From: Malus domestica
Taxonomy: Eukaryota > Streptophyta > Magnoliopsida > Rosales > Rosaceae
Reading direction: 5' to 3'
DNA: 64,000 nt
Assembly: GCF_042453785.1 (NCBI RefSeq)
Contig: NC_091661.1
Location: 30,495,501 to 30,559,500, forward strand
The notes under the pieces are model-generated. The model was not told the DNA's origin, did not search any database, and was given only the letters and a program-made list of their open reading frames with translations. Within the stretch, counting starts at the first letter, position 1. Each line of letters begins with the position of its first letter. Below are positions 15,607 to 26,421 of the stretch, piece after piece. A program made the position numbers and the translations under genes.

Positions 15607-15984
15607 TGTTGGTACCACACATATTGGGCCTCAGACCTTGACACATTGGGTCTGAACATTTGGGCCTCATTACCCAGCCCATAATTATGTAAAAGAAGGA
15701 GCCCCTTATTCTATAAAAGGGAACTCTTCCCCCTCACAAATGAGACTCGGTGAACCCAACAGAGGGCAATACCCTCACAAACACAACAACACTTTCTTCC
15801 TCAGGGGGACTCCCCTTGAGCTTGTAATCCATACATACAGTTACAGAGAAATACAATCAACATCAATGTGGACGTAGCCCAAACATTGGGATGAACCACG
15901 ATACATCTTTGTGTTCTTGGGCGTTTGCATGATTCACGGTAGGATTTACGTTGTTCCAAGACCTTCCGGTTTTGTGCATCAACA
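15607..15984 (+). repeat. 5' LTR of element A
   Basis: TG...CA bounded, with a TATA-like TTCTATAAAAGGG near 15708-15722. It matches 18620-18997 without gaps. Confidence 0.92.
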
Positions 15985-16266
15985 TTTGGTGCCGTCTATG
16001 CAAAACGACACGAAAAGCTATGTCGGTTATCTTTCATTTTTTCATCTCCGTCGTGAATCTGCAAAAACCCAAGAACCAAAGCTTTCCTAGAAAACCCACG
16101 GAGCCACTTCTCTCTCACTCAGTCTTTCTCTAAAACACACAACACAACACCCTCTCTCTCTCTCTAAAAAAAGCATGGTGTTCGGAGTGGCACTGAGAAA
16201 ATTATTGGGTTTCTAGAGAAATATATATAAACAGATATACATACATATATATATATATATAAGCAG

Positions 16267-16590
16267 ATGAGTACATGTGTTTCGGTTCATAAGGACGCAG
16301 TTTCCGTCTTGAAGCTCCGACTCTCATTCGGGTCCAAAACCGACAACAAGCTCGTCATCCCACCATTCCCAGTCAAGGAGGATAAATTCTCTTCCAATGG
16401 TGACCGTCCGATTGTCGATCTTCCTCTTATATCTCAATGGTCGCCCTCTCACGCCACCACCAATGCCACCTCGCAGCTGATCGCCACCAGGACCAAGGCA
16501 GCAGACAAGAACAGCGTCGGCCGAGCCGTATTTTTGCTGATATGTCAGACGGGGGAGAAGATTGATGAGATTCTGCTGCTTGATTGGTGA
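16267..16590 (+). other. Open stretch inside element A, unrecognised
   Basis: A 107-codon open frame beginning MSTCVSVHKDAVSVLKLRL sits in the interior of element A, just after an AT microsatellite. It has ordinary protein-like composition but no family I recognise. It may be a second captured host fragment or chance. It is not gag-like. Confidence 0.25.
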
Positions 16591-16866
16591 GCGGGAGGAC
16601 TGGCTAGGTGGCTAGCCGAACCCATCAAGAACAGTTCTCGAAACCTTCATCTTCCTCATCGTCCCTCTGTAAAGATCCTCCAAACTGCACACTGAAGCTC
16701 CGGCTTCTGAGCTTCTGAAACCGTCCTGATACGGCTGCAAGAGCATAGCAGGATTGTCTTTCCCGACTCATTGTTCATTGGTTTAACTGAAACATACGTG
16801 AAACCTCACAAAATGGGGTCTTAAAGAATGGCGTCAAGTGGTCGTTAGCTCGCGTCGGAGATCATG

Positions 16867-17020
16867 ATGTGTGCCCTGCCGCCCTCATTTTGTCTCCAAC
16901 GAAAGAGCTGGCTGGTCAGATTCATGAGGAAGCTAATAAGTTTGGTTATCAGAGTGAGGTGAAGATAGTTGTTGCTTATGGTGGAGCTTCAATTTCTCAG
17001 CAGGAAATGTGTCGTCTCCG
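16867..17020 (+). pseudogene. Captured DEAD-box RNA helicase fragment
   Basis: The frame reads ALILSPTKELAGQIHEEANK, then KIVVAYGGASISQQ. This is the Ia and GG motif region of the DED1-like DEAD-box helicases of plants (family pattern LILSPTRELxxQIHxEAxKF, then VVAYGGAxIxQQ). Only about 50 residues are present and no ATP-binding or DEAD motif is found. The fragment lies inside LTR element A in the element's orientation, so it was probably copied from a host transcript. Confidence 0.75.
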
Positions 17021-17680
17021 ACAACAATCCATCGGAGAAGATAAGCACTTCATCTTCTACAAATTATTTCTGTTTATTTAAATATCTTATTATTATTTTA
17101 TATTATTTATTACATATTTGCCGGTGAAGATGCCTATTACATATTTTATATTATTTCTGTTGGATAAGCACTCCATCTCCTACATGATTGCTGGCACTTC
17201 ACGTACAAATTATTTCTGTTTATTTAAATTTCTTATTATTATTTAATATTATTTATTACATGATTGCTGACACTTCACGAAACCTTTCACTATTGCTAAA
17301 TGGAGTAATAAAGTTGAAAGTTGAGCTTATCTCCACGGATTGAGTATCTTTACTTAAAGTGAATATATCCCAACTTTTTCTTTAAATCTTCCCCACAAAC
17401 AACATGATGATACCTTTACTTTTTTTTTTTTAAATTTTATTTGCTGAAAGTGGATGTCAGTTGGCAGTCGAAAATATACAGCGAGTCCGCATGGTGTCTT
17501 TATATCACACACACTAGGAACAGCATTACAAGCTACATACTAGCTATTCACACGCTGCTTAATTCTGTTATAATATCATTAGTCTTTGTATCTTATTAAT
17601 GGTTTATCACATGACTATTTCCCATAACATGCGACAAGTCTGACCAAATTGGATGTCAACAACTTGAATAAAAATATATA

Positions 17681-17713
<33 letters not shown>

Positions 17714-18619
17714 TATATATTATTTATCACCTAGTGACACATATTTAACCCAAGTACATGTGCAATATTTATTCATGGCCTAGAATATTATGACTGCCTT
17801 TAAACTATGTCACTTGTAGAATATGTGATTTACCACACGACTGAATACATTATTTATTTATAGAAGGCACATAGTACAATATTTTGCCTTGACAAACTTT
17901 GTCAATTTGATTTATTCATTATACGGTCATACTTATACTGTCATTTATTGTTAGGAATTATTAAGCAACTAGATCCACTTATCAACATTGTTGCTGATTA
18001 AAGAAGTCTACCAACTTATAGATTGATGAGCCACGTGCTCATGGTGATCTCTTGTCTAACCGGACATCCACTTGCTCGGACATTCGCTTATTGGGACACC
18101 TATGTGCCTGGTCCCAAGTTGATGACCCTACAGATAGCCCCAACTTGATGACCCTACATATAGTCCTGACTCAAAGACCTAACTTGCGGACCCGATCCGC
18201 GGATCCGACACATAGACCCAATATGCAAACCCGACAAGCGGACCCGAGTCATGTCGAGAATCAACTCATACTGAGTGCATGTCGACATAAAATAGATACT
18301 TGCAATGAGGAATACCATGAGTTGAGCCGCCTCGCAACGAGCATAACCTCTAGCCGAGCTGCCTAGCAACAAGCATCGCCTCTAGCCGAGCAAACACCTC
18401 GCCGCAAGCATGGCCTCTAGCCGAGCAGCCTCACAACGAGCATAGCCTCCAGCCGAGCAGTCTCATAATGTGTGATACCTCTAGTCAAGTATTGCTTTAT
18501 GTTGAGCATTGCCTTAGGTTGAGTAGTGGTTCAAGACATCTAGCCACTTCGGCTCATACATGGATTGATTTGAAGTCTCCAGCCAAAAGACTCTCTTGAT
18601 TGAAGACTTGGGAGACTAC

Positions 18620-18997
18620 TGTTGGTACCACACATATTGGGCCTCAGACCTTGACACATTGAGCCTCAACATTTGGGCCTCATTACCCAGCCCATAATTA
18701 TGTAAAAGGAGGAGCCCTTTATTCTATAAAATGGGATTCTCCCCCCTCACAAATGAGACTCGGTGAACCCAACAGAGGGCAATACCCTCACAAACATAAC
18801 AACACTCTCTTCCTCAAGGGGACTCCCTTTGAGCTTGTAATCCATACATACAGTTACAGAGAAATACAATCAACATCAGTGTGGACGTAGTCCAAACATT
18901 GGGGTGAACCACAATACATCTTTGTGTTCTTGGGTGTTTACATGATTCACGGTCAAATTTACGTTGTTCCAAGACCTTCCAATTTTGTGCATCAACA
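18620..18997 (+). repeat. 3' LTR of element A
   Basis: It mirrors the 5' LTR and ends CATCAACA, followed by the CCTTA target duplication. Confidence 0.92.
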
Positions 18998-19176
18998 CCT
19001 TATATTGTAAGGTTTACGTAAAGATATTGGAGTCTAACATATGGAGTAAAAACGCCAAAACAGTGAAAACTAAGATGGACATACTAATCATTGACATTTA
19101 CCTTTTCATTAATGAAAATAGTGTTTCATCATCAGAGTCGTGCATTTTGTTTGCATTAGAGTCACTATGATCCTCA

Positions 19177-19686
19177 TGTTGGAGCTTAAAAAGACTTCAC
19201 TACTTTGGAGATGTTTATCTCACAAAGAAGAATATAATGCAGCGGAATTGATAGGCAAGAGAAAGAAAGAATACTCAAAGTATTACATAAGATTTTTATT
19301 CACTCACAAACTTAGTGCAAGAGGAAACACTTAAACACTCTTAGAAGCTATGTTGCTTATTCTCACTTCTCACTTGGCACTCTCACTTCTCACTACTTGC
19401 TCTATTGGTTGTTACAAATGGTGTGGATGCCTTCTCCTTTTATAGGCATGGATGGAACCTTGGAGAAGCATGGAAGCATCATGTTAGAGATATCTAGATA
19501 ATTCCACTACCTTCCTAAGCTAGAATTATCTACACTAATCTTGTATGTTGGTGGAATCCTCACCATTTTTCTAAACTCTTCCACCAACTTGAACTTTGCT
19601 AGAATTCTCTAGCATGTGCACGGATCTTTCTTTGTGCATGGGTTGGATCCATTATCTTTAGGCCAAGATAAGATTACAATTCAACA
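19177..19686 (+). mobile_element. Solo LTR (about 510 bases) in TIMELESS copy 2
   Basis: It begins TGTTGGAGC and ends TTCAACA, with exact CCTCA duplications on both sides (19172-19176 and 19687-19691). The complete TIMELESS copy shows the empty site at 35972-35980. A CTTTTATAGGC TATA-like word lies near 19437. No interior or second LTR is present, so it was left by LTR-LTR recombination. It is Copia-like by terminus only. Confidence 0.88.
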
Positions 19687-20778
19687 CCTCATACTTCAGC
19701 ATGCCACCTGAAGGCCTATTCTTCCGAGGAATATGCAAACCAAGCTGCTTAAGCTTACGAGAAACTTGAGGAGCTGTGAATTTCCCATCTCCATCCATCA
19801 CATTTGCAATCATATGGCTGCACTTCTTATGGTCTTTAAATCTGGGAAGATAAAAGAAAGCAAATTTTTCTTTAAAACAATATAATAGTAAACTTCCATT
19901 ATCTACTTTTCTTTGGTAGTCCTTCAGCATTTATCAAGTGAGAAGATGTCAAATCTCATATTTCCACCAAGCCACCAAGTAATACTCACTGCTCGTACAA
20001 AGCTCTGATATTAGCTTCCTGATCTTCACTGAGGGCACGAACCCATTTTCTTGCTCGCCTATAAAAATATCAAGGTCAAATTAATTAACAGCTGAGCAGT
20101 GAAGCAACAGAAACAAAACCAGCATGCATTACGATTTGCCATGAAATGAATGGCTAATTGACAAAACACTCCCAAAGGCTGGCTTTTTTATTCAGAATGA
20201 GTGTTAACTGCTTCCTCTACTCTTCCATCTCCATCAATTTGACTAGGCCCAGTGGAAACAGATTCCTGAGCTTTCCGAATTCTTTTCCTTCGTGCAACTT
20301 TCAGCCCTAGCTGTTTAAGCTTGTTAGAAATTTGAGCTGATGAAACTTTACCACCACGATCAAGAGCTTCCGAAATAAGATGACTACAATTCTGGTCATC
20401 CTTGAATCTAGATTGGCCATATTTGTTAGGAAAGATTTCAGTAAACCTGGATGAAAAAAGTAGGTTACACTGCTAAAACAATATTGGCACAACTCAAATT
20501 ATGAACAAACGTCATGGCCAATGCTTTTTATAATATTATGTTTCGGCTGATATCAGGTGTACTATACTGAGATAAAGGCTTAAGAAAGAAGAAAGATCTT
20601 AGATCAAGGAACCATACTTCTCATACAGTTCCTTAATTTTCATCTCCAGTCAGCTCCAATAACAAGTCGCTTGTTTTTTTCTAGAAACCCTCTCAGTTTC
20701 ATTCTCTATGGATATTCTCTCACTGCAACAGTCGAATGCATCAAGGTCTCATTAAGATGACAATTTATAAACAATATT

Positions 20779-21117
20779 TGTTTGTACCATACTTAGAGCC
20801 TCCGTATTTAGATCTCATATAAATACTCGGGAGATTCAAATGTAATTATGTAATAAATGAAGGGGCAAATATGTAAAAAGGGGATGAACCCTTATTCTAT
20901 AAAAGGGCCTCCTCACCCTCACAATGCTCAAGCTCATCCTCACATACAAAGCTCTATCTCCCTCACAATCCTCTCACAAACAGAGAAATACGATATTAGT
21001 GTGGACGTAGCCCAAACATTGGGGTGAACCACGATACATCTTGTGTTTTTTACTTTCTTGCAGATTCACGGTCGGATTTAGGTTGTTCCAAGACCCCTCC
21101 GGTTTTGTGTATCAACA
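20779..21117 (+). repeat. 5' LTR of element B
   Basis: It contains the TATA-like CCTTATTCTATAAAAGGGCC and is flanked on the left by ATATT. Confidence 0.92.
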
Positions 21118-21337
21118 TTTGGTGCCGTCTGTGGGAAACGATACAAAAAGTTGTGTCGGTTCTCTTTCATTTTTTCATCTCCACCGTGAATTTGCAAGAC
21201 CCACACAGAAACACAAATTTTGCACACTCCATTACTCTACTATGCACACCCATTTGATTCAACCATTTCTTCCATCCGTAACAACTTCCTCCGATCATTC
21301 GATCTTTCTAGATATCCAGAGATAGAGAGAGAAAAAG

Positions 21338-21607
21338 ATGGAGTCCGACATCCCACTCATCGAAATCGCAGGAGAAGATGACTCGCTGCTTCAATTGACC
21401 CATGGTGACGTCGTTTCAAGCAGCAACACCAGCAAAATCTCCAAAGACGACGCCTTTTTCTTCTGCTCGCCTCTTCAAACCCGCAGATCCAAGCCATTCG
21501 AAGGTGTGGTGGTGAGTGAGAATTCCAAAACGTTGAGTTCTACGCTTTGTAGAGAGAGTGTGAATTTAAATAAAAAGAATACATATGCAAATAAATTAGA
21601 AAAGTAA
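21338..21607 (+). other. Open stretch in element B, unrecognised
   Basis: An 89-codon frame starts MESDIPLIEIAGEDDSLLQL and contains DDAFFFCSPLQTRR. The composition looks like the N-terminus of a host protein rather than gag. It lies just downstream of the 5' LTR in sense orientation and may be another captured piece. The family is not recognised. Confidence 0.3.
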
Positions 21608-21615
21608 ATTTGGAG

Positions 21616-22178
21616 TTATAAATTGAGCTTAATGTCACCCAAATCAAGCTCTGCCGCAATCTCCTCCAGCTGCTTCTTCACGCTCAAGTCAATATGATTC
21701 GACCCCGACTGCCCGTACCTCACCGTGAACCCCGCCACCAGGCTCGGATAAATTTCCGTCTTGATCCTCACATTCTTCACCCCCGTCAGCTTCTGTACCT
21801 ACTTCACTATCTGCGCCAAGTGCTGCGACTCCAGCTTCACCACCAAGCTCACGATCGCCAGCTCCGCGTCCATTATCTTGTCGTACACCACCTCGAACTC
21901 CTTCACGATGTCCTTTATTAGGTCGATCCACTTCGCGTCGACCAGGATGTTGAGGAAGTTGATTGTGTGCGGCTGTAGCACCAACGACTTGGCGATGTCG
22001 TCCAACACTTACCGCTTCTTCTTCAAGCCGATTGTGGGGTTGATGAAGTCGAACACCGACGCTCACCGAAGAACTTCTCGATCTTTTCCACGTTGTCGAT
22101 GGTGGCTTCGAGGGTGTTGTTGGAGTTCGCCACGTCGGCTAGCGCAGAGGTGTAGCTGGTGGCGGCAGAGGCGTTCAT
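21616..22178 (-). pseudogene. Captured chloroplast ATP synthase delta chain (atpD) copy
   Basis: Minus-strand frames read SAATSYTSALADV, NNTLEATIDNVEKIEKFFG, then PHTINFLNILVDAKWIDLIK, VKLESQHLAQIVK, NVRIKTEIYPSLVAGFTVRY and KKQLEEIAAELDLGDIKL before a stop. This is most of the mature delta (OSCP-like) subunit of plastid F1Fo ATP synthase, lacking the transit peptide. It lies antisense within LTR element B, has no introns and is broken at several points. It is a gene copy carried by the retroelement, not a working subunit. Confidence 0.85.
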
Positions 22179-22722
22179 ATGGGCGCCGAGACAAAGACAG
22201 AGAGAAAGGCAGTGGAAATAGAATAGAAAAAGAAAAAGATCATGATGTTACTAAAGAATATTTCAGACAAAGAAAAAGGGAAGAAATGGGCAGAGAATGA
22301 GCGGGGAGATCAAGAAAAACAAAAGATACCTTGCAAAGCAACATGGGTGGACAGAGAATGAATGAGGAGATCAAGAAAAGCAGAAAGAAAAGCAGAAAGT
22401 AAAAGCAGAAAGCAAAAGAAAATAAAAAGAAGCAGACATAATTGATGTGGTGATGGCATGCAGAAAATGGAATTATGGGTATGACCCATTGAGCAGAGGG
22501 TCGGATTTATTTTTGAATGATGTAATTTATTTTTCTTATCTTTCGGAGACATCTGTATAACCTCATCAGAGGGTAATAAAAAAAATAAAAATAAACGGCA
22601 AGCCCAAAATAATGGGCTAGAATGTTATATGAAGGGCGAAGACCCATATGCCGAAAAGAGCCAGGCCCTCTATTATCACAAACCAGGTGATCAAAAGTAC
22701 GTCCAGTACTCCAAAATTATAC
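22179..22722. other. A-rich spacer within element B
   Basis: It holds repeated GAAAAGCAGAAAG-type purine words at about 22360-22430 followed by AT-rich sequence. No gene is seen. Confidence 0.5.
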
Positions 22723-22924
22723 ATGAGCATCACTCATGTCAATCATACATAAACATTCATGAGCATCACTCATGTCAATCATACATAAACATTCATGAGC
22801 ATCATTCATGTCAACATTCATGAGCACCACTCATGTCAACATTCATGAGCATCACTCATGTCAACATCCATGAGCATCACTCATGTCAATCAACATAAAC
22901 ATTCATGAGCATCACTCATGTCAA
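22723..22924. repeat. Minisatellite of seven hairpin-forming units
   Basis: Seven copies of the core CATGAGCATCACTCATGTCA are separated by short spacers (variants of TCATACATAAACATT). Each core is itself an inverted repeat, CATGAG-CATCA-CTCATG. The array sits in the interior of LTR element B. Confidence 0.9.
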
Positions 22925-23040
22925 TCAGTTTCAAAAGCTTCATTTACAGAGCTTCAGCTTCAAAAGCTTCATTTACAAAAGCTCCAACTTCAAAGCTTCA
23001 CTTGCAAAGCTTCACCTACAAAGCTTCAGTGCAGGGTATA
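22925..23040. repeat. Short tandem CTTCA-AAGCTTCA repeats
   Basis: Imperfect repeats of AAAGCTTCA(N)TTTACA-like units, about 14-20 bases each, directly follow the hairpin minisatellite. Confidence 0.6.
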
Positions 23041-23204
23041 CAAATACCACCTCTGAACTACCGCCACTTTAGCCCATACATGGTTTCAATTTAAAGTCTC
23101 CAGCCAACAGGCTCCATTGACTAAAGACTTGAGGGACTACACTATGTACCATATATTGGGCTTCCACAACTGGGCCTCATGAAAAATACTTGGGGGACTC
23201 TAGC

Positions 23205-23538
23205 CCATCATTTATGTATTGAGGAGCAAGCCCTTATTCTATAAAAGGGACTCCCTCACTTTCATTAGAGAGCACCCATTATTCATGTACTGAGGAGCGA
23301 GCCCTTATTTTATAAAATGGACTCCCTTACCTTCATTAGAGAGCATCGCTGCTAGCTGAGCAACCGACTCGCCGCGAGCATCACTCCTAACCTATCACTT
23401 ATGTATTGAGGAACGAGCCCTTATTCTATAAAAAGGACTCTCTCACCATCATTAGAAAGCATCGCCGCCAGCTGAGCAACTGCCTCGCCGCGAGCATCAC
23501 TCCTAACCCATCACTTATGTATTGAGGAGTGAACCCTT
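23205..23538 (+). repeat. Tandem LTR-promoter-like modules
   Basis: Four partial copies of a module reading TATGTATTGAGGAGCGAGCC, then CTTATTCTATAAAAGGGACT, then CCCTCACC, start near 23213, 23282, 23398 and 23516. The last is cut by the solo LTR at 23539 and resumes at 25751, and another follows at 25815. The core matches the TATA region of this element's own LTRs. Confidence 0.75.
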
Positions 23539-23690
23539 TGTTACAACCACCCCCAAATAATTGTGGTATTTGTTATTTCCACCCCCAACTACCACGTGGC
23601 ATTCATCTAACTCATCTCATTTTTCTCTCTTTCTGGCCCCCCGAGACTTCTCTCTTCTTCGTCTCTCTACCCGGTATCTTTTTCCCGTAG

Positions 23691-23731
<41 letters not shown>

Positions 23732-25750
23732 CCCCTCTCATCCTCCCGCAAGCCTCACCCCTTCACCATCCTCGTACCTGCACCACCTTCACCATCATCA
23801 ACTCGCCATCTCTCATTCTCTATCGTCGTTGCGGAACACGGAGAAAACCTGAGAAGCTCTCCGGCGGGATCCTTCCTTCTTCCTCCGGTTAGGTAAGGTT
23901 GGACTCCCTTTTAATCTGCCATGGATGATGTTGAATGTTGTGTGATGAATTTTACATGGTTTTTTCAAGGTTTTAAGGACAGGAACATCGCGATGGAAGC
24001 TCACCCATTTTCTGGCGAACCTGTGCATTTCGAGGGCATTTCCGGTCACTTCCGACCGAGTCACAGTTTTTGGAAGGTAGCAACCTCTTTCTCTCTCCTT
24101 GATTAATATTGTTGGTGCACAAAACCGCAGCTCCAACCTTCTTCTTCCTCGGCAACCAGGCCATCCGGCCTTCCCTTTTCCTCCCCCTCGGGCCTTAGCC
24201 ATTTGGGCTAGCCCATTTGGTTTTTCTTTTAGTTATTTTTTTTAAAGCCCAAAGGCTTTGGGCCAGTTTCTTTTAAAGGGCTTAAAGCCCTGTCTTTGTT
24301 TGTGAGGCCTTAAGGCTTTGTGGTGTGTGTGTGTATGTAGCCTGTGTGTGTGTGTGTGTGTGAGTTAGCGTGTGTGTGTGTGTGTACATATGCATGTCAT
24401 GCATGTGTGTGTGTGTTTGTGGTGTGTATATGTTTGGGCTTAAGCCCAAACCCCTTTCCTTCACCCTAAAGCCTTTTTAACCCAAAAACCCTAGGTTCCT
24501 AAAATTTTTTAAACCCTAAACCCATCCAATCCCAAATTCCTTATTTTATTTAGTTCAAGCCCAATCTTTTAGAAAATCCTTTTTATTTATTTATTACCAT
24601 TTTTGTGCTTAGGTAAAGTTGCTAGTGGAGAAATTTTTAATCCTTATTCGCGCGACTCTTCTACTAAGGAATATTTGTGAGTGGACCCCTTCTAAAATTT
24701 CATGATTTTATAATTTAATTGCATAAATGATTAGCATGCCTACGAATTTATGATTCGATTTATGTTAAGCTTGTTTACTGAATTTATTGAATTTGTCTCA
24801 TGTTTTTGGTGAGGAAATAAATGTTAGCCTATTTTGAGCTATATTTTAATATATCGTATTTTCTATAAAAATCATGATCTGGTAGACTATCTGATGGATG
24901 ACGATAAGATGCTAGAACATGTTTTAGAAACCTATTTTTATAGTATAGACGATGGATGACTTTATACTATGAAGTGGTTATTTCTAAGAGGCGTAACTAT
25001 TTGTGCGTACCTAGAGGACACTATGCCGCCTAGGGCGAGGATCTGGTGTTGGCATTTAGGTTGGGAGTTGGTAATCCCTAGCTACGAGCTAAGGGACATG
25101 GAGCAGGCATTGGGCCGGGAGTTGGTAATCTTTGGCTATGGGCACAAAGACCATGGAGCAGGTATTAGGCCGGGAGATATATTTATTCGGTGATCTTTCT
25201 AGCAGCACACCATGCTTACGAGACGATCTACGATACGTTTATTGTTTTGATTTCCGCGATGTTATTCCGTGATATGACTTTTGAGATATTTTTGGCATGC
25301 TAGGATTTTTATTAAATCCATCACTTATTATGCTAGTAGTTTTCATTATATATAAATTGTGGGGGTTAGTACATTGATAACTGTTTTATTATTATTATAT
25401 ATATATATATATGAACTTGGTCCACTCACCTTTGTTTTGCGCCCCCATTCAGGACTTAGGATCAAGGCACCTAATCCCGGTGTCAAGACATTTCCGCAGC
25501 AGCATCTTTGAATCCTCTCGATGTATGACCCACTTTTTTATTCATTCAATTTTATCTTAATTCTAATTAGTGATTAGGTTTAGTTGTATGCTCTAAACAC
25601 GTTCCTAAATTTTTAATTCATTGTATTTTAAATTTCTAACTCTTATTTATTTCTTATTCTTAGCTTTTGTATCAATTAATGGCTTTCGTCACCCTCGGGT
25701 GTCGGCCATCACGTGTGGTATTCGGGGAATATCAGGGTCGGGGCATGTCA
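23539..25750 (+). mobile_element. Solo LTR of a long-LTR (Gypsy-like) element nested in element B
   Basis: The ends are TGTTACAACC and GGGTCGGGGCATGTCA. The flanks are CCCTT (23534-23538) and TCCTT (25751-25755), a one-mismatch 5-base duplication that splits a repeat module of element B. It contains a CT microsatellite (23691-23732), a TG microsatellite (24320-24420) and GGAGTTGGTAATC repeats at 25055-25170. No coding interior is found. The family is suggested only by the GGTCGGGGC terminus. Confidence 0.78.
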
Positions 25751-26082
25751 TCCTTATTCTATAAAGGGGACTCCCTCACCATTATTAGAGAGAGAGCATC
25801 ACTCCTAACCCACCACTTATGTATTGAGGAGCGAACCCTTATTTTATAAAAGGGACTCCCTCACCTTCAACGCCACAAGCCGAGCTAACCAAGGCAACAT
25901 AAGCCACAAGCCGAGCAGCCTCGCAACATGTGCTACTTCTAGTTGAGCATCATTTTAGATTGAGCACCGCCTCATATCGAGTATTCAGTTCTAGACGACA
26001 TCTAGTTACTTCGGCCCACACATGGACTGAATTTCAAGTCTCCAGCCAAAAGACTCTCTTGACTGAAGACTTAGGGGACTAC

Positions 26083-26421
26083 TGTTTGTACCATACTTAG
26101 GGCCTCCGTATTTAGATCTCGTATAAATACTTGGAGGACTCAAATGTAATTATGTAATAAATGAAAGGGTAAATATGTAAAAAGGGGATGAGCCCTTATT
26201 CTATAAAAGGGCCTCCTCACCCTCACAATCCTCAAGCTCATTCTCACATACAAAGCTCTCTCTCCCTCACAATCTTCTCACAAACAGAGAAATACGATAT
26301 CAGTGTGGACGTAGTCCAAACATTGGGGTGAACCACGATACATCTTGTGTTCTTTACTTTCTTGCAAATTCACGGTCGGATTTAGGTTGTTCCAAGACCC
26401 CTCCGGTTTTGTGCACCAACA
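26083..26421 (+). repeat. 3' LTR of element B
   Basis: It mirrors 20779-21117, is preceded by a purine-rich GACTTAGGGGACTAC tract and is followed by the ATATT duplication. Confidence 0.92.

Follow-up and report, generated by a model that had tools for sequence, protein, structure and literature searches.

Two related retroelements at the locus

The window analysed here is a stretch of 64,000 nucleotides on contig C1 of Malus domestica (C1:30495501-30559500), and it was compared with the whole apple genome of 651,096,769 bases in 19 contigs. It contains two long terminal repeat (LTR) retroelements on the forward strand, the non-autonomous element A (15607-18997) and its relative B (20779-26421), which has a different LTR 5' half; pieces of host genes lie between the LTRs of both. 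The two LTRs of A (15607-15984 and 18620-18997) were 93.7% identical across 378 bp, had TG..CA ends, and were flanked by TCTTA and CCTTA, which agree at four of five positions. Those of B (20779-21117 and 26083-26421) were 94.4% identical across 339 bp and flanked by a perfect ATATT duplication (5/5). The limits that a sequence-only reading had given to both elements were confirmed by these alignments.

The 5' LTR is followed by a predicted primer-binding site, placed by sequence reading and leader alignment, which is TGGTGCCGTCTGTGGGAA in B (21120-21137) and a mutated version of the usual family form TGGCGCCGTCTGTGGGAA in A (15987-16004). In A this site lies within a leader of approximate limits (15985-16080). 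The 3' block of A (17015-18619) was common in part to other members of the family, including L010, L021, L022, L023, and L028. The 3' block of B is repeat-rich in its first part (22667-23538), which other members share, and its second part (25752-26082) runs to the purine-rich tract preceding the 3' LTR. Between these parts lies a later, nested insertion of 2,212 bp (23539-25750, no strand assigned) with TG..CA ends and the flanks CCCTT and TCCTT (4/5); the empty site was contiguous in L013, L017, L018, and others, and the insertion is probably a solo LTR of another family.

As the earlier reading had held, A and B were alike at their ends and different in their centres. An alignment of 232 bp at 85% covered the 3' part of the LTR, the primer site, and the leader, with LTR similarity starting near position 237, and a stretch of the 3' interior aligned over 211 bp at 79%; no similarity beyond short repeat-like matches was found between the two cargo regions. 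The absence of a recognisable gag-pol also held, with no match to gag or pol in five A/B frames scanned and no open frame longer than 182 codons in either interior. An autonomous Ty3/gypsy element has gag-pol inside it; here gag was found only in related loci.

Host-gene pieces in A and B

The interior of A from 16152 to 17014 was tiled by genome matches to pieces of five host loci. Piece 1 (16152-16470, sense) has its parent at C17:867 kb, with a related copy on C9, and aligns from a CT tract that precedes the start codon of the parent. Piece 2 (16464-16603, antisense by reading; parent C2:7011 kb) comprises 78 nt upstream of the ATG and 66 nt of coding sequence; its protein resembled, by eye only, the N terminus of an aleurain-type protease, and Pfam and PDB gave no match. 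Piece 3 (16616-16692, antisense; parent C13:5401 kb) is DnaJ-like, since the parent frame matched DnaJ B13 in PDB (1.3e-04), with no match in Pfam. Piece 4 (16685-16813, no strand assigned) has its parent at C2:11567 kb, and the parents of pieces 2 and 4 are thus both on C2, 4.6 Mb apart. The fifth locus is a DEAD-box gene at C15:13558 kb with a related copy on C2, from which exon a (16812-16919, + strand) and exon b (16920-17014, + strand) abut exactly at a removed GT..AG intron. Pfam recognised the DEAD domain (PF00270, 4.1e-07). A does carry the DEAD-box piece noticed before, as one among pieces of five host loci and not as its only cargo. Two joins within A showed microhomology, GCCACC (6 bp) and CTGCACA (7 bp).

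In B, the first host piece consists of exon 1 (21209-21500, + strand, ATG at 21339) and exon 2 (21501-21608, + strand), with the intron between them exactly removed by comparison with the parent at C3:9473 kb, which has a related copy on C11. It starts about 120-130 bases upstream of the parent ATG. The motif GTGAGT near 21512 was rejected as a splice donor, as it sits within exon 2. An open stretch after each 5' LTR, formerly listed as unrecognised, is another host-gene piece. The second piece of B (21600-22190, - strand) is an antisense copy of atpD, ATP synthase delta, with parents at C10:5654 kb (93%) and C5:6749 kb (89%); it extends through the stop codon plus 16 nt, and Pfam matched PF00213 on the minus strand (1.4e-07 and 7.9e-08). 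Its identity and orientation had been read correctly. Its lack of introns was rejected as evidence of an RNA route, because both parents match the captured part without a break and atpD alone therefore does not prove such a route.

Fixed ends and variable middles in the family

A first look across the genome gave 1,927 candidates for the A LTR and 3,278 for the B LTR, 40 of each being scored. The 20 loci around the best A-LTR matches were fetched, and the 11 with two LTRs were combined with A and B into a set of 13 members, chosen therefore by A-LTR similarity; one B-type locus, L072, was added later. The 13 members span 3.1 to 7.6 kb. About 440-475 bases at the 5' end were common to A and all other members except B, in which only the leader, the primer site, and the 3' part of the LTR resemble A at this end. 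At the other end, all 13 had a 3' part in common, the length of which varied. Between the ends, coverage by other members dropped to zero across long stretches; the exceptions were L013 and L017, which share their middle, and A, L010, and L022, which share the 3' part of theirs. The proposal of a gene-transducing family with a swapped middle between fixed ends was thus upheld for the 13 two-LTR members compared, which are part of the family. The leader was present in 24 of 24 cargo-type members aligned and in none of nine gag members aligned, and in all 24 the cargo started after it. Target duplications were perfect 5-bp repeats in seven of the 13 members and agreed at four of five positions in two. 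Direct LTRs, TG..CA ends, target duplications, primer site, and purine-rich tract together identify these elements as LTR retrotransposons.

Two further loci, L011 and L015, are apparent A-type solo LTRs with flanking repeats of 5 bp or 4/5, judged by eye. At L009 (C12:8661500-8670500), a primer-site-like TTTGGCGC stood directly after the 3' LTR, as in an array of LTR-interior-LTR-interior.

Cargo of other members and its parents

Host cargo was found by genome search or Pfam in nine of the 13 members (A, B, L010, L012, L018, L022, L023, L027, and L028). In genome searches with eight elements (A, B, L010, L018, L023, L027, L028, and L048), every one matched at least two separate host-gene-like places; part of these matches was inspected, and some were other family members instead of parents. 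One of them, L065, was rejected as a host parent and taken as another element because its first bases match the element leader. Pfam domains in L018, L023, L027, and L028 were CCDC22_N, S-AdoMet_synt_N, zf-FLZ, Inhibitor_I29, MAP70, and F-box-like; an F-box was found in L012, DUF599 in L022, and Alliinase_C in L024, in which one LTR was detected. L070 was rejected as SAM synthetase, Pfam giving DUF1645. The cargo of L009 (P450-like) and of L013 and L017 (SGS3-like) was named by eye only, and two L009 frames and one L017 frame had no match in Pfam. The middle of L021 (C7:25746500-25756400) contained frames with a BED zinc finger and a hAT dimerisation domain; this hAT-type transposase would belong to a DNA transposon either inserted into the element or carried by it.

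Parent DNA was read for 16 pieces of seven elements. The parents of any one element were spread over different contigs, and a parent often had a related copy elsewhere, on a second contig; the related copies paired as C3/C11, C5/C10, C9/C17, and C13/C16, which we take to be apple homoeologues. Comparison of cargo with parents for missing introns, as the earlier reading had suggested, revealed the precise loss of seven GT..AG introns across four elements (one each in A and B, three in L010, and two in L027). L010 contains the 5' end of a methyltransferase gene (COMT; PF08100, 2.2e-13) and four exons of one gene on C15, from which its three introns were removed. CCDC22 in L018 was rejected as a further intron removal; its join is a 7-bp TCCATCA repeat with no GT..AG fit. 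From the exact removal of introns, together with the microhomology at joins, it follows that capture passed through RNA, most likely by template switching.

The pieces were also placed on their host mRNAs, with parent start codons taken from open frames and not from annotation. The mRNA-5' boundary was upstream of the likely start codon in nine of the 16 pieces (A piece 1, antisense A piece 2, B piece 1, the L010 methyltransferase, L023 FLZ, the first piece of L028, L018 CCDC22, L027 L069, and L027 MAP70), internal in five (A DEAD, A piece 3, B atpD, L018 DUF1645, and L028 DUF4220), and unassigned in the remaining two (A piece 4 and the four-exon gene of L010). For five of these nine, the alignment started in a CT tract, a feature frequent in plant 5' untranslated regions (UTRs). 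Counted in bins of 150 bases from the LTR inward, the tracts CTCTCTCT or TCTCTCTC occurred in 10/24 and 7/24 members in the first two bins and in 0-2/24 in each of the others. They cluster by the border between leader and cargo, a descriptive pattern seen after the fact.

Primer-site survey

The primer-site word, allowing at most one mismatch, occurred 3,533 times in the genome (1,775 + 1,758) and its backward control not at all; A itself was missed by this count because its primer site is mutated. Nineteen sites, spread down 100 listed places and all on C1, were taken as a sample. Eight had gag-like sequence with another leader, and 11 had no gag and all had the leader of the cargo family, a share that is only rough, given a small sample drawn from a single chromosome. 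Assignment of all 3,533 sites to one cargo family was rejected in view of these eight gag-like sites and of the LTRs fetched for five of them, all unlike those of A and B. Host cargo was recognised in six of the 11 cargo-type sites. Pfam gave a host domain at five (RING, linker histone, DnaJ, ADH_zinc_N, and DUF1635), and the sixth, L048, matched at least five separate places, plus galactose oxidase (4.2e-07).

Descent of the chimeras

Several members carry related chimeras. L072 and L073 both contain COMT, piece 4, and the DEAD exons. In A, DEAD follows a shortened piece 4, and pieces 1-3 stand ahead of these. L010 retains COMT, with its four-exon gene in place of piece 4 and most of DEAD, and L022 retains only the end of DEAD. 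The LTR of L072 is of the B type (88.9% to B) and surrounds an interior common to A-type elements, and LTR types therefore recombine too. From this comparison of members, A, L010, L072, and L073 are best read as stages of a stepwise replacement of cargo, piece by piece, with exchange of LTRs. The L048 mosaic had a second copy at C1:24813592, 97% identical over 1,299 bases, so that at least one mosaic is present twice.

A candidate helper

The gag group includes L041, which matched Retrotrans_gag (PF03732, 6.8e-12), and the adjoining L071, which matched RVT_1 (PF00078, 4.4e-30) and, among solved structures, best the Ty3 reverse transcriptase (6.4e-35). Five of the eight gag-bearing copies sampled on C1 (L041, L042, L043, L050, and L056) were about 99% alike over 1.7 kb, which suggests recent activity of the gag group. 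L019 has an A-type LTR (92.4% to A) joined to a gag that is broken by stops; when its LTR-gag sequence was used as a query, four further places matched over full or nearly full length and a fifth from base 77. By their starting points, the gag-bearing matches to the L019 LTR fell into groups, near 242-264, 342-347, and 367 of the query. The earliest group is near the start of A/B similarity (237), as if LTR 3' parts may have been exchanged as a module. The LTRs of five sampled gag-group members share with A and B a tail ending in CATCAACA and the primer site. As the body of the gag-group LTRs tested is unlike that of A and B, the link to a helper is based on the shared LTR tail and primer site and on the copies joining an A-type LTR to gag. 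A gag-pol relative of this kind is likely the helper of the family.

Discussion

We conclude, with a probability of about 0.87, that A and B belong to a large non-autonomous LTR family which captures spliced host mRNAs by template switching and keeps its ends fixed while its middle is replaced. The family would retain only what appear to be cis-acting ends, that is, the LTR, the primer site, a leader of about 95 nt, the repeat-rich 3' block, and the purine-rich tract, the rest being cargo. Packaging and copying of its RNA would depend on proteins provided in trans, the probable source being Ty3-type gag-pol relatives with the same LTR tail and primer site. The reverse transcriptase would leave the element RNA in mid-copy, copy one or several co-packaged spliced host mRNAs, and return to the leader; the chimera would then integrate, could move again, and would be overwritten in later rounds. 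Mobilisation in trans, packaging by way of the leader, and switching inside the particle are steps that we infer from the arrangement of the elements.

Several observations weigh against this account. Recognisable host domains were absent from the frames tried in five of the 11 cargo-type sites, Pfam giving no match for the scanned frames of L045 (1), L047 (2), L053 (1), L054 (2), and L057 (2). No target duplication was found in four of the 13 members, L009 and L023 lacking one and L018 and L027 having a trimmed LTR end. Microhomology was measured exactly at three joins; where piece 4 meets DEAD in A, the overlap is only about 2 bp with a one-base difference in a G run, and 12 unexplained bases lie between pieces 2 and 3. 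The antisense pieces (A 2, A 3, B atpD, and L028 DUF4220) need a second switching route. For the helper, LTRs from five of the eight sampled gag-group members were compared with eight from the A/B/L019 set, and none matched over more than 100 bp.

Capture at the DNA level, in which repair of double-strand breaks or gaps at integrated elements fills in host DNA or cDNA, would agree with the 12-bp filler in A, and PMC4516963 describes uptake of spliced cDNA by break repair in mouse zygotes. We regard this route as very unlikely, since the chimeras occur in further copies (the L048 copy, L013/L017, and the L072/L073/A series) and the cargo begins after the same leader in every cargo-type member aligned. 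Successive, independent insertions of processed pseudogenes, made by long interspersed nuclear elements (LINEs) or otherwise, into ordinary element copies would account for spliced pieces, and B does hold one later insertion with its own duplication (23539-25750). At the cargo joins displayed, neither poly(A) nor an own duplication was visible, no systematic search having been made, and two joins of A share 6-7 bases. LINE copies are typically 5'-truncated; here the opposite was seen, as nine of 16 inspected pieces reach the region of the parent start codon. The 13 members also have no common undisturbed middle, and insertion of pseudogenes is extremely unlikely as the source of the cargo. Read-through of transcription past the element into neighbouring genes, followed by re-integration of the extended transcript, under which a review (PMC13317346) places much of plant LTR gene capture, is just as improbable here, as the cargo lies between leader and 3' block and not beyond an LTR, the parents of one element are on different contigs, and the pieces are joined in both orientations.

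The A/B family has known counterparts. Bs1 of maize is described as an LTR element with exon-only pieces of three host genes (PMC13317346, PMC4717578). The A/B family likewise carries spliced, exon-only pieces of several unlinked host genes between LTRs; unlike Bs1 with its one set of three genes, the sets here vary by member, with serial replacement and both orientations. Bs1 is not known to carry a complete gag-pol. The soybean element GmaRetroS15, a gene-carrying terminal-repeat retrotransposon in miniature (TRIM), is reported as a three-gene mosaic of intronless exons with one 5' UTR piece and 5-bp duplications, and gene-carrying TRIMs as 30 elements of 1,172-1,449 bp in 7 of 289 subfamilies (PMC4717578). 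The present family resembles GmaRetroS15 in its spliced multi-gene mosaics and 5-bp duplications and differs from gene-carrying TRIMs in the larger size of its members and in the frequency of host cargo among them. TRIMs are defined in PMC4668562 by a very short interior and small size, and the limit is loose, as PMC5659011 applies the name to families with interiors of 1,641-2,042 bp. The large retrotransposon derivative (LARD) has a large conserved non-coding interior, usually above 4 kb (PMC4668562); here the middle differs between members. A Pack-MULE is a DNA transposon that captures exons and introns of genes (PMC4717578), and the present elements have LTRs with 5-bp duplications and cargo with introns removed.

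LTR-mediated retroposition, in which microsimilarity guides a switch from element RNA to cellular mRNA in the particle (reviewed in PMC5408686), is alike in its switching; it is described for individual retrocopies, unlike the several captures per copy in one non-autonomous family seen here. Gene capture by LTR elements has been surveyed on a genome scale (PMC3726574), and 1,343 cases are given for sorghum (PMC13317346). PMC3726574 is a survey across many elements, the main text of which does not use the terms "intron" or "template switch"; the present case concerns a single family, constant at its ends and exchangeable in its middle. PMC7264820 states that sequences transduced by retrotransposons are usually in sense orientation, and here at least four pieces read antisense. 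In Rosaceae, the pear survey PMC4668562 counts TRIM and LARD families, with neither "captur" nor "gene fragment" in its main text, and the families with TG..TT and AA..CA LTR ends in PMC5659011 differ from the A/B family with its TG..CA ends. The A/B family was not described in the titles and abstract beginnings listed from the literature searched, mostly non-subscription, which is weak evidence of novelty. The A/B family is thus a non-autonomous LTR family that captures genes in the manner of Bs1, and in the members examined it has done so unusually often, repeatedly, and in mosaic form.

A more tentative idea, which we consider rather doubtful, is that the family permanently serves to shuffle exons and captures them preferentially at one point, just after the leader of about 95 nt. 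The reverse transcriptase would copy host mRNAs toward their 5' ends, leave the mRNA at the cap or close to it, in many cases within a CT tract, and re-enter the element, with sense pieces arising from first-strand and antisense pieces from second-strand synthesis. The cargo would then be biased to promoter-proximal exons and start codons, and many chimeric N termini would result.

Individual cases such as Bs1 are the best-known examples of host genes captured by LTR elements in plants. The family in apple can act as a natural gene shuffler, and with its constant ends, replaceable middle, and thousands of primer sites, some of them in gag-bearing relatives, it could hold a large natural set of chimeras. 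It would allow the rate, place, and direction of reverse transcriptase switching onto host mRNAs, and any preference for mRNA 5' ends, to be measured, and it would show how many annotated genes of apple or pear are such mosaics.

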